Below are positions 54,324 through 57,376 of a stretch of 64,000 bases of DNA, one piece after another (position 1 is the stretch's first letter; the number at the start of each line of letters is the position of its first letter). The stretch spans positions 186,001 through 250,000 of the forward strand of contig NZ_QBKQ01000001.1 of NCBI RefSeq assembly GCF_003054225.1, written 5' to 3'. Below the pieces are notes generated by a model. The model was not told the origin of the DNA and ran no database searches. It was given only the letters and a program-made list of their open reading frames with translations. The stretch comes from Christiangramia gaetbulicola. GTDB lineage: Bacteria > Bacteroidota > Bacteroidia > Flavobacteriales > Flavobacteriaceae. Made by a program: the position numbers and the translations under genes.

Positions 54324-54340
54324 ATCAAGACCGTACAATA

Positions 54341-54450
54341 AGCGTTGGGTAAAAAGGAAAATGATTAACTAGGCTAACAAACCAAAACTAAGCCGACAAA
54401 TCCGCGTCCCTTACTCCGCCAACTGGCGATAACCGAGACCGTTGGCAGTC
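54341..54450 (+). repeat. dispersed element copy A (~110 bp)
   Basis: Begins AGCGTTGGGT and ends GACCGTTGGCAGTC. It shares an aligned block with copy B at 56501-56610: GAAAAT-ATTAACT, AACCAA-ACTAAGCCGA, CGTCCC/CGTGTCCCC, TACT-CG-CAACT and GCG-TA-CCGA. Its right end also matches, in opposite orientation, a third copy split by the IS110 element. GCCAAC and GTTGGC in its right part can pair as a stem. Confidence 0.65.
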
Positions 54451-54540
54451 ATTAAAAAAACTGGAATGCAACAATAAAAACTATGGTTTGATTTAACTCA
54501 CCATAGTTTTCATAGAAAGGAAAATAAATTTTCTAAAAAC

Positions 54541-55092
54541 CTAATAGATTATTGTACCCCATCCATCATTCGAAAAGGTTCCAGAGACGGGTTGTCCTGT
54601 CGTCTCATCCAATTCTTCAACTATAAGGGTCTCATTACTTCTAAAAGAACCAGTTGCATCAGAAAATCTTCCTGTACCACCTACAAAATCGAAAACTCCA
54701 CCAGCAAATAGTCCGAATTCATCGAAGAAAACTTCAACAGATTCCCAATAAAGTTCATCTCCATTTGCTGCGATGTATTTGCCAGAAAGATAAAATTGTT
54801 CATTTGGTATGGTACATATTACACCTTCAACATCAATTATTCCCAAATGAATCGCCTTTCCATTTCCTTTTATAGAAAATTGTAGTAATCCATTACAGTT
54901 TGTGGATTCTGTGAAAAACCAATTCCCAGAAGCTTTAGATTTAAAGGGACGATTAACAACCTTAGCCTTTAATTCAACTTCGCTAGTTTTAATACCAGAG
55001 GAATCTTTCAAAAAATCCTCTTGCTCATCAATACTGCACCCAATAAAAAGGAGAGTACAAAATGCCAATTGAAAAATAAATTTTAGTTTCAT
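54541..55092 (-). CDS. putative lipoprotein with a beta-barrel (allene-oxide-cyclase-like) domain
   Basis: 183 aa. Lipoprotein signal MKLKFIFQLAFCTLLFIGC (Cys19), then an acidic stretch SIDEQEDF. The rest is beta-rich and ends with FVGGTGRFSDATGSF, a motif seen in allene-oxide-cyclase-barrel and DUF3224-like proteins, followed by VSGTFSNDGWGTIIY. Function unknown; extracytoplasmic. It lies between inward-facing copies of the dispersed element (ends at 54450 and 55268), so it may be a mobile cargo gene. Confidence 0.6.
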   Translation of the reverse strand: MKLKFIFQLAFCTLLFIGCSIDEQEDFLKDSSGIKTSEVELKAKVVNRPFKSKASGNWFFTESTNCNGLLQFSIKGNGKAIHLGIIDVEGVICTIPNEQFYLSGKYIAANGDELYWESVEVFFDEFGLFAGGVFDFVGGTGRFSDATGSFRSNETLIVEELDETTGQPVSGTFSNDGWGTIIY

Positions 55093-55305
55093 ATCATATA
55101 GTTTTTAATTTATATTCAATAACATGTAAGGAGTTAACTATAAATTTATAATGCTCTATCTAGCGAAACAATGATATATATCAAATTTATATATTATAAT
55201 ACCCGAATTATCCTTAACTAACTTAATTATGGTGATACTTATTTAAAACTATTTTAATTGAAATAACGACTGCCAACAAAGAACTAAGGTAAAATCCAAG
55301 TACTT

Positions 55306-56271
55306 CTAAGCTAATTTCGATATATAATTTTCCTGGTAAGAAGTTCCTGATTTAGCTATGGCAAATGCCTGTTTCAGGAGCTTATTGCACACAGCTATGA
55401 GTGCCAGTTTCTTACTCTTCCCCTTCTCAACTATTCGCTCATAAATTTCCCTGCAAGCTTTATTAGTTTTGCAATCAGTGAAACTACACATGAATAGTAA
55501 ATTCCGAAGCTTTCGATTGCCTACTTTACTAATTCGACTGCGTCCTCTTACACTGGTTCCGGATTGCCTGATCGTTGGAGTGATCCCAGTAAAACAGCAA
55601 AGCTGCCTGGCATTCTCAAAACTGGTAAATCCGTCTGTAAGCACAATTAATAACATCGCTGTCTTCTTACCCATCCCTGGAATACTTGTTAATTGCTCCA
55701 GTTGATCTTCCTGGGTTTGCCTGACTAAGGATTCCAGCTTGGTTTCAATCTGATCTAATTCCTTCTCTAATTGCTTTAGCGTTCGAACGAGTGATCTACT
55801 AACAGTCTTTGAAGGTGTACCGAGAGCTTTCTCTCCGTGTATCTTATTCTTCACCGCAGTGCGTTGTTTCAAATAAAGATCCTGAAGACTTAGTAGCTGC
55901 AAACACTCTGCCTGCACGGCGTTTCTGGCTGTGTACAAAGGAACTTTTGTAGCCTGTGCATATTCACAGATCGCTTTGGCATCACTCTTATCGGTCTTGA
56001 TCTTGGAGAGTTTCATCTGAATAAAACGCTTCACCGAAAGTGGATTCACAACCGATACCGTTATACCTTTCTCATATAAATACTGAGCTAATCTGTAATG
56101 ATAATAACCAGTAGCTTCCATAACTACCAGGCTGTCATTCTTAATAAACTTCAGCAAGCCTTTAAAGCCTTTTACATCATTAGAGAACTGGTCATGCTTT
56201 CCATTTTGATCAACCACATCAAAGAATGATTTACTAATGTCTACTCCGTAAAAATGTTTAATTTTATCCAT
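55306..56271 (-). CDS. IS110-family transposase (DEDD/serine recombinase)
   Basis: About 321 aa from the ATG at 56271 (MDKIKHFYGVDISK); an ATG 39 nt upstream gives 334 aa but would overlap the predicted bridge RNA. The RuvC-like DEDD domain has HFYGVDISKSFFDVV (first Asp), LVVMEATGYYHY (Glu) and KTDKSDAKAICEYA (two Asp). A coiled-coil segment follows (about 140-190), then the Transposase_20 domain with LTSIPGMGKKTAMLLIV and CCFTGITPTIRQSGTSVRGRSRISKVGN, where the catalytic Ser sits. All key residues appear intact, so the element may still be active. Length close to the ~326 aa of known RNA-guided members. Confidence 0.95.
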   Translation of the reverse strand: MDKIKHFYGVDISKSFFDVVDQNGKHDQFSNDVKGFKGLLKFIKNDSLVVMEATGYYHYRLAQYLYEKGITVSVVNPLSVKRFIQMKLSKIKTDKSDAKAICEYAQATKVPLYTARNAVQAECLQLLSLQDLYLKQRTAVKNKIHGEKALGTPSKTVSRSLVRTLKQLEKELDQIETKLESLVRQTQEDQLEQLTSIPGMGKKTAMLLIVLTDGFTSFENARQLCCFTGITPTIRQSGTSVRGRSRISKVGNRKLRNLLFMCSFTDCKTNKACREIYERIVEKGKSKKLALIAVCNKLLKQAFAIAKSGTSYQENYISKLA

Positions 56272-56289
56272 ATAAGAATGATTGGAAAG

Positions 56290-56435
56290 AACAGCTACTT
56301 TGGTTTTCATCGACTTAAAAACGAGATCCAGGTCTCACAGAACTAAACGAAATTAAAGTAGAAAAGAGAGGGGATTATCATTGTTGACGGAATCTCTAGT
56401 TCCCACGGTTTATATAATCTTATTCCTCTCTTTGG
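56290..56435 (-). ncRNA. predicted bridge RNA of the IS110 element
   Basis: Read on the minus strand. First loop: stem AAAGAGAGG/CCTCTCTTT (56425-56433 with 56363-56371), stem GATTAT/ATAATC, a symmetric 10+10-nt internal loop, then a GGAA/TTCC tip. Its loop strands are ATAAACCGTG, 8/9 identical to the left flank ATTAACCGT, and GTCAACAATG, which pairs with 9 of 10 positions of CTTTGTTGGC at the right junction (one wobble, one mismatch). Second loop: outer stem CTACTTT/AAAGTAG (56355-56361 with 56295-56301) and hairpin GAGA-CCTGGA-TCTC; one side has TTAGTTCT, identical to the right end of the IS, the other TTTAAG, which pairs with CTTAAG at the left end. This is target-loop then donor-loop order as known for IS110 bridge RNAs. 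Not tested experimentally. Confidence 0.65.
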
Positions 56436-56500
56436 TTCTTTCTGATTAACTATCAAAATTTAGAGAAATTAAACTTAAGACGGTTAATCGCCAATAGTCG

Positions 56501-56610
56501 GCACCGTTAGAAAGAAAATAATTAACTTGACCAACTAACCAATACTAAGCCGATCCCCGATGCATCGGGACCGTGTCCCCTACTTCGTCAACTTGCGTTA
56601 TCCGAAAAAT
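56501..56610 (+). repeat. dispersed element copy B (~110 bp)
   Basis: Begins GCACCGTTAG, contains AATTAACTTGACCAACTAAC and ACTAAGCCGAT, and an internal palindrome around CCCGATGCATCGGG, ending near TTGCGTTATCCGA. Same orientation as copy A. It lacks the final GTTGGC of A. Its start lies back to back with the left part of the third copy (minus, about 56480-56510) that carries the IS110. Confidence 0.6.
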
Positions 56611-56762
56611 TCTACTACTAATTCATCGAAGTTATTTTCAACTTTAGCGTCAAATTAGATTAAGTGATAAAGATAAAATAGAAGCCAATCTCTATAAAGT
56701 GAATAAGAAATAATTAAAATACAAAAAACTACGGCCGCACATTGGGCGGTACAAACTAAAAT
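56611..56762. other. AT-rich spacer
   Basis: No gene or clear structure seen between copy B and the tRNA terminator. Confidence 0.4.
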
Positions 56763-56800
56763 AAAAAACCCGCAAAAAGCTTATTTTTAGCTATTTGCGG
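56763..56800 (-). terminator. intrinsic terminator of tRNA-Arg
   Basis: On the minus strand CCGCAAATAGCT pairs with AGCTTTTTGCGG (11 of 12 positions, 7-nt loop), then a T run. It begins 11 nt after the tRNA 3' end. Confidence 0.88.
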
Positions 56801-56810
56801 ATCAACCCTG

Positions 56811-56884
56811 TGACCCCGGCAGGATTCAAACCTGCAACCCTCAGAGCCGAAATCTGATGCGCTATTCAGTTGCGCCACGGGGCC
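56811..56884 (-). tRNA. tRNA-Arg (anticodon TCG)
   Basis: 74 nt on the minus strand. Acceptor stem GGCCCCG / CGGGGTC (one G-T pair), discriminator A, D-arm with GGCGCAACTGAATAGCGC, anticodon stem TCAGA/TCTGA with loop TTTCGGC (anticodon at 56848-56850, reading CGA), and T-arm GCAGGTTTGAATCCTGC. The CCA tail is not encoded. The upstream end is 42 nt from the YqeY gene stop on the same strand. Confidence 0.97.
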
Positions 56885-56926
56885 TTATTTCACACTTTGC
56901 CTTGGCATCAATGTGATACTGACTTT

Positions 56927-57376
56927 TTAAGCCAGTTTCTTTCTTACAATCATAGAAATAGTCTTCCCGTCTGCCTTTCCAGCCAATTCTCCGGTAGCCA
57001 TTCCCATTACTTTCCCCATATCCTGCATACCAGAAGCTCCGGTTTTTGCAATGATCTCATCAACCTTTGCTTCGATCTCTGCTTCGCTCATTTGCTCAGG
57101 AAGGAATTGCTCAATAACTTCAGCCTGCGCCAGTTCTGGTTCGGCAAGATCTTCTCTCCCCTGTTCCTTATATATCTGGGCACTGTCCTTACGTTGCTTT
57201 ACGAGTTTCTGCAAAAGCTTCATTTCTTCTTCCTCGGATAGTCCATCTTTAGAAGAAGATTCAGTATTTGCCAGTAAAATAGCTCCTTTTACAGCTCTTA
57301 AAGCCTCAAGTTTTAAACTGTCTTTAGCTCTCATTGCAGCCTTCATTTCGGCCATTACCTGTTCCTGTAAACTCAT
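56927..57376 (-). CDS. GatB/YqeY domain protein
   Basis: 149 aa, the usual size of stand-alone YqeY proteins. All-helical: MSLQEQVMAEMKAAMRAKDSLKLEALRAVKGAI, LLQKLVKQRKDSAQIYKEQGREDLAEPELAQAEVIEQFLPEQMSE and GKVMGMATGELAGKADGKTISMIVRKKL. The domain resembles the tail of the GatB amidotransferase subunit and may bind tRNA, which suits its position next to tRNA-Arg. Precise role unknown. Confidence 0.93.
   Translation of the reverse strand: MSLQEQVMAEMKAAMRAKDSLKLEALRAVKGAILLANTESSSKDGLSEEEEMKLLQKLVKQRKDSAQIYKEQGREDLAEPELAQAEVIEQFLPEQMSEAEIEAKVDEIIAKTGASGMQDMGKVMGMATGELAGKADGKTISMIVRKKLA

Follow-up and report, generated by a model that had tools for sequence, protein, structure and literature searches.

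A flavobacterial IS110-group insertion sequence with a predicted bridge RNA matched to integron-type attC-like sites

Introduction

What directs an IS110-group insertion sequence (IS) to the place where it is found, and how much of the answer can be read from the element itself? We addressed this question for an element of Christiangramia gaetbulicola (Flavobacteriaceae) that lies in a 64,000-nucleotide stretch of contig NZ_QBKQ01000001.1 (positions 186,001 to 250,000; assembly GCF_003054225.1), hereafter the window. IS110 elements that carry a bridge RNA are already known (PMC11208160, in the part of the text available), and a prediction made from the letters of the window (the original prediction) proposed such an RNA in the noncoding left end of this element. 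Our analysis favours, with a probability of roughly 85%, an element that would move by bridge-RNA-guided recombination into integron-type attC-like sites, and related elements in other flavobacteria carry predicted guides that fit the versions of these sites in their respective hosts. The case is built from sequence, namely the protein family, a conserved RNA fold, covariation of the guides with target and donor, the position of insertion and the attC-like anatomy of the target.

The element and its transposase

The element and its gene are as follows.

55279-56479, minus strand: IS110-group insertion sequence, whole element, 1201 base pairs (bp); junctions compared with native sites
55306-56271 (stop included), minus strand: transposase with DEDD_Tnp_IS110 and Transposase_20 domains, 321 amino acids (aa) from the probable start M14 of a 334-aa frame

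Read on the minus strand, the element runs from CTTAAG at its left end through a noncoding region and the transposase gene to GTTCTT at its right end, and comparison of its junctions with native sites revealed no target duplication. Ahead of the transposase gene lies a long noncoding left end, and the right end is short, an arrangement characteristic of the IS110 group. The transposase contains an N-terminal DEDD_Tnp_IS110 and a C-terminal Transposase_20 domain (Pfam). Against the NCBIfam model 'IS110 family RNA-guided transposase' (NF033542, cut-off 140) it reaches 229 bits, and its relatives of solved structure in the PDB are ISCro4 and IS621; all three sources agree with the family originally assigned. 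The mechanically called open reading frame (ORF) begins at 56310, but the true start is probably M14 (56271), since a stop codon lies at most 24 codons upstream of the GVD[IV]S motif in 33 of the 53 relatives that have this motif and since many relatives align only from residue 14 onward. The first, miscalled codons of the 334-aa frame are overlapped by the bridge RNA as modelled below.

All the sequence strings named in the original prediction for the element and its guides occur in the window. Its span of 55282-56479 does hold an IS110 element but is three bases short, because comparison with unoccupied attC-like sites assigns the CTT at both ends to the element, which places the start at 55279. 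The host genome holds two copies, 88% identical to each other. Copies at unrelated sites had been named as evidence that would speak against guided insertion; the second copy is flanked by the same repeat as the window copy and lies in the same kind of site.

A candidate bridge RNA in the left end

The RNA and its four predicted guides were placed as follows.

56285-56443, minus strand: bridge RNA, modelled extent, with closing stem GAAAGAAC/GTTCTTTC, target-binding hairpin and donor-binding hairpin
56405-56414, minus strand: left target guide TATAAACCGT; 8/10 with the element's own flank GATTAACCGT; covaries in relatives
56379-56388, minus strand: right target guide GTCAACAATG; 10/10 pairing (two wobbles) with the pre-insertion site CGTTGTTGGC
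56339-56347, minus strand: left donor guide TTTAGTTCT; 8/9 match to the right end CTTAGTTCT; covaries
56314-56320, minus strand: right donor guide TTTTAAG; pairs with CTTAAG of the left end; invariant or nearly so in relatives

For comparison we took the best 78 of 277 loci, with 26 genera named, which together with the two copies of the host genome gave 80 sequences; the left end was recovered in 77 of these (L044, L077 and L109, which lack a left-end anchor, were dropped). The fold was derived from 59 distinct left ends, that of the window and those of 58 relatives, leaving out identical left ends and three with insertions (L075, L095 and L103) and retaining L076. The aligned left ends share a closing stem and two hairpins, one for binding the target, with a two-sided internal loop, and one for binding the donor. 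Over its 34 base pairs, 99.2% of 2003 cells are paired, compared with 92.9% in column shuffles (0/500 as high), versions of the fold slid along the alignment pair in 49-55% of cells, and 12 of the 34 pairs show compensatory changes. No bridge-RNA family of Rfam matched, the sole match at gathering score within 55000-57000 being a tRNA.

The bridge RNA originally predicted is thus recovered as a two-loop fold, and its stems, whose loss among homologues had been named as counter-evidence, are kept with compensatory changes. The pairings proposed for its loops were also reproduced. In the first loop, ATAAACCGT (56405-56413, minus strand) is identical to the flank ATTAACCGT at 8 of 9 positions and GTCAACAATG pairs with the right junction CTTTGTTGGC at 9 of 10 (one wobble); in the second, TTAGTTCT (56339-56346) equals the right end of the element exactly and TTTAAG (56314-56319) pairs with CTTAAG, one wobble included. 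On opposite strands, the first loop therefore matches the target and the second the ends of the element itself.

Covariation of guides with flanks and ends

If the guides act in site choice, they should change together with the DNA that they contact. Left flanks of the required 10 bases were available for 69 elements (L042, L043, L045, L048, L052, L053 and L094, at contig ends, were left out, as was L086, in which no left end was found). The left target guide and its own flank agree at 7.40 of 10 positions, compared with 5.67 +- 0.16 when flanks are shuffled (62 distinct pairs; 0/20,000 shuffles), and within the largest guide class (42 pairs) the match is 7.12 compared with 6.57 (0/20,000). 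For 97 pairs of elements whose transposases are at least 80% identical and whose guides differ at three or more of 10 positions, pairs that are not independent of one another, the own flank was the better match in 81, the worse in 2 and tied in 14.

Such matching could merely have been inherited, without function, by related elements in related hosts, and the hosts and elements are indeed all related, with some guide classes non-significant by themselves. The signal nevertheless survives when flanks are exchanged among close relatives only: with all 69 elements included and shuffling confined to transposase groups at 75, 80 or 85% identity, 0/20,000 shuffles were as good in each case, and at 90% identity 81/20,000 were. 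Moreover, the signal lies mostly at guide positions 2, 3, 6 and 7, and per-position matching peaks there, where both sides vary, which makes descent an extremely improbable explanation. Position 1 is unmatched, and positions 9-10, which correspond to the two bases (XY) that precede TGTT at the target, are weakly matched. On the donor side, the left donor guide matches the right end at 8.01 of 9 positions compared with 7.66 after shuffling (72 elements; 0/5,000).

The right target guide is near-constant across the relatives except in Salinimicrobium terrae (L041-L043), in which both target guides are changed and the copies, at TATAAAAACA^ATGCTTAAACC, lie some 12 bases deeper in the attC-like site than usual (by comparison with L049 and L043). 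This bears on a different account, in which the transposase protein itself reads the attC-like site, as a folded hairpin or by its R'' edge, and the RNA has no role in the choice of site. As that account would have it, attC-like hairpins are the targets (mean bottom-strand z of -3.39 over 98 sites) and the TGTT edge is nearly constant (67/72), yet the covariation of the left guide with the flank exceeds what relatedness would give and the S. terrae copies have shifted inside the site together with both guides. We regard recognition by protein alone as highly unlikely; the S. terrae shift is the clearest hint in favour of RNA over protein in recognition of the site edge.

Insertion point, core and circle joint

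Bridge-RNA guidance into attC-like sites also has to account for the bases at the junctions. Across the 78 relatives and the two host copies, 67 of the 72 readable right junctions begin with TGTT, the R'' edge of the attC-like site, and 92 of 96 native sites (from overlapping loci, some counted twice) read left target, XY, TGTT; the form XY-CTT-TGTT was not seen among these 96. At 69 occupied left junctions XY is GT in 23, AT in 22, GG in 10 and another pair in 14, and CT precedes the element in none (0/69). The insert is CTTAAG...GTTCTT, because native sites lack CTT and occupied left junctions keep XY. The attC-like target across the predicted insertion point reads ATGAACCGT^TGTTGGC.

Conservation of length, taken with this insert, gives GTTCTT^CTTAAG as the joint of a circular form. 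The circle sequence is predicted as GTTCTTCTTAAG from the present boundaries and as GTTCTTAAG from a model in which target and donor share the core. All four distinct end-to-end joints found among 168 loci (L062/L113, L079, L114 and L115) read GTTCTT^CTTAAG and none has a single CT; likewise, an inclusive pattern search of 397 Flavobacteriaceae genomes returned three joints, all GTTCTT^CTTAAG. The joint of L115 is preceded by a transposase tail, and the DNA upstream of those of L062/L113, L079 and L114 holds no recognisable one.

Two parts of the original prediction have to be given up in the light of these data. A CT core shared with the target is contradicted by the 69 left junctions and by the two other bases that stand before TGTT in 92/96 native sites, and a circle joining TTAGTTCT to TAAGTTT is contradicted by the four joints. 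The original prediction also missed that the target is a class of integron-type attC-like sites rather than one unusual sequence. The loops suggest a donor core of CT and a target core of XY.

Several observations weigh against guided insertion as we read it. The CT core of the donor is missing from the target, a departure from the published IS621 plan. The window sequence alone folds barely above its shuffles (z -1.45; 17/200 as good), so that the case for an RNA structure rests on covariation. The left target guide of the window has two mismatches in 10, the two smaller guide classes, AACCG and TAGCC, taken alone are not significant (1784 and 1581 of 20,000), and the donor covariation depends on few changes (five distinct guide/end pairs). 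Among individual loci, the sites of L060 and L070 fit the left guide at only 5/10, L062 and L079 adjoin a donor-like left flank, CAGTTCTT, and the right flanks of L060 and L061 lack TGTT. The poorly fitting sites of L060 and L070 are possibly off-target or rearranged.

Integron-type anatomy of the target

The DNA around the element in the window comprises the following features.

55267-55278, plus strand: CGACTGCCAAC followed by A, the R'' edge of the attC-like site that the element interrupts; pairs with the cassette start at 54441-54451 (1/11 mismatch)
56480-56607, plus strand: remainder of the interrupted attC-like site; 56480-56554 resembles the array repeats of the genome, the far (R') edge is degenerate
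54330-54443, plus strand: preceding attC-like site, ending CCGAGACCGTT; its 5' half is degenerate
54441-55278, plus strand: single, outlying gene cassette between two attC-like sites, its own site split by the element
54541-55092, minus strand: main ORF of this cassette, opposite to the cassette direction

A BLAST search with 56474-56570 found 40 places in the genome, most of them at C2:651-697 kb, and 32 of the 33 exact matches to ATNAACCGTTGTT lie in the C2 cassette arrays. The same arrangement recurs in the relatives: at the 64 loci with enough right flank, a cassette start complementary to the flank lies within 2.6 kb in 33 with at most 1/11 mismatch, compared with 1.6% of cross pairs, and in 49 when two mismatches are allowed, compared with 20% of cross pairs.

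The C2 array contains 38 repeat starts and 36 complete sites with both edges, delimiting 35 cassettes of median length 811 bp. It is headed by one recombinase gene.

C2:648702-649865 (L030:8702-9865): XerA-like tyrosine recombinase, 387 aa

This recombinase scores 217.6 against NF040815 (cut-off 220) and 201.6 against TIGR02249 (cut-off 265). Archaeal XerA can be aligned with it end to end and IntI4 in two pieces; it carries about 95 additional N-terminal residues and, by the profile scores and the IntI4 alignment, lacks the IntI-specific additional region. Of the genomes of the genus, 23 of 24 hold homologues (E<=1e-60), as do 39 of 60 in the family. Some of the family homologues have internal stop codons.

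The repeats might instead be some other dispersed repeat, unconnected with integrons, into which an ordinary bridge-RNA IS110 inserts. The missing IntI-specific region would fit that view, as would published surveys, which in the available part of PMC9024848 give almost no complete integrons in Bacteroidetes. Four features of the arrays speak for integron-type sites instead. There is one ORF per unit, an ORF of at least 60 aa being present in 34/35 cassettes, in 33 of them on the array strand. The cassette-specific R'/R'' boxes pair: GTT-N6 at the start and N6'-AAC at the end are exactly complementary in 23/35 cassettes and have at most one mismatch in 31/35, compared with 1.3% and 5.7% of 1,190 cross pairs. 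The sites form stable bottom-strand hairpins, with 82 of 98 at z below -2 (mean -3.39) compared with 12/80 random stretches, and with the bottom strand more stable than the top in 90/98. Finally, the integrase gene stands at the head, followed in 13/13 Christiangramia regions by a putative attI-like sequence, TATCCC...GATATAAC..GTT (L137, at a contig end, was left out), after whose GTT the first cassette begins. We therefore consider a repeat of another kind unlikely.

In other genera, 20 of the 43 listed recombinase places were taken, 16 of which have more than 1.5 kb downstream. These 16 regions contain 141 cassette-type pairs, compared with 26 in the reversed control; by count, L149 (6 compared with 5), L167 (3 compared with 2) and L168 (2 compared with 1) are near the control, and L153 has one pair. 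Arrays headed by the XerA-like recombinase may represent an overlooked integron lineage.

The ORF of the window cassette (54541-55092) had no Pfam or NCBIfam match. It is lipoprotein-like and runs opposite to the cassette direction, whereas 33/35 cassettes of the main array have an ORF on the array strand. A short palindrome of the CCCGA...TCGGG type occurs both in the attC-like site of the window (56562-56574) and in the right-guide region of the L075 and L103 RNAs.

Proposed mechanism and significance

In the mechanism that we propose, the left end would be transcribed into a two-loop RNA and bound by the DEDD/serine transposase. The first loop would pair with both strands of the attC-like site just inside its R'' edge and the second with the element's joined ends. 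Cutting between XY and TGTT, the transposase would, by strand exchange, insert CTTAAG...GTTCTT in a single orientation without duplication, splitting the attC-like site and presumably ending its function. As host sites diverge, the guide would diverge along with them. A cassette array contains tens of sites that are nearly identical, so that a single guide could offer the element many safe landing places.

Tens of related bridge RNAs whose native targets are known amount to a natural experiment in RNA-guided retargeting, in which guide changes between close relatives can be used to read pairing rules and core requirements, and the apparent mismatch between the core of the target and that of the donor would relax a constraint on the design of bridge recombinases. 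The target also draws attention to cassette arrays of a major marine group that have a recombinase other than IntI; if these are active, attC-type recombination would proceed without the IntI-specific domain, the requirement for which would become directly testable. We lean slightly towards a broader picture of a widespread, largely overlooked integron lineage of Flavobacteriaceae, in which a XerA-like recombinase lacking the IntI-specific domain would move the cassettes, with an IS110 clade settled in its arrays whose bridge RNAs follow the attC-like sequence of each host and whose target core is unlike the donor core. Literature searches covering few subscription papers found no report of an IS110-group clade dedicated to attC-like sites or of cassette arrays in Flavobacteriaceae.

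Comparison with known systems

The original papers on the IS1111-attC group, a known parallel in the targeting of attC sites, are said to be those of Tetu and Holmes in 2008 and of Post and Hall in 2009. The transposase described here is of the IS110 type by its scores and its RNA lies in the left end, which sets it apart from that group; subterminal inverted repeats were not separately searched for.

According to the available part of PMC11187229, targeting of attC by the sister IS1111 group is known for the IS1111-attC group, ISKpn4 and ISPst6. Like the present element, these are RNA-guided ISs with a DEDD transposase that specialise in one end of integron attC sites, but the IS1111 guide RNA lies downstream of the transposase gene, with subterminal inverted repeats, whereas the present guide lies upstream and the element resides in Flavobacteriaceae, at attC-like sites of arrays with a XerA-like head.

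With IS621 and ISCro4, as described in the accessible text of PMC11208160, our element shares a DEDD and C-terminal serine-type transposase, a bridge RNA in the left end upstream of its gene, and two loops whose 5' strand corresponds to the left side and 3' strand to the right side of target and donor. It differs from both in having an integron-type attC-like target and an insert, CTTAAG...GTTCTT, whose two ends repeat the same three bases. Its donor guides span CT while the target has XY (GT, AT, GG and others), in contrast to the shared core of the IS621 plan.

As for the arrays, the available part of the IntegronFinder 2.0 paper (PMC9024848) names a complete integron of Bacteroidetes in one species, Salinibacter ruber, besides earlier integrases that had no cassettes; Bacteroidetes or Bacteroidota are listed among integron carriers in the portions available of PMC2426708 and PMC8618304, where Flavobacteriaceae are unnamed. 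The arrays resemble IntI chromosomal integrons, as portrayed in the text available from PMC9024848 and PMC9668308, in their integrase gene, attI-like site, one-ORF cassettes and folded sites with R'/R'' boxes, and differ from them in an integrase that is XerA-like, lacks the IntI-specific region and carries about 95 extra N-terminal residues.
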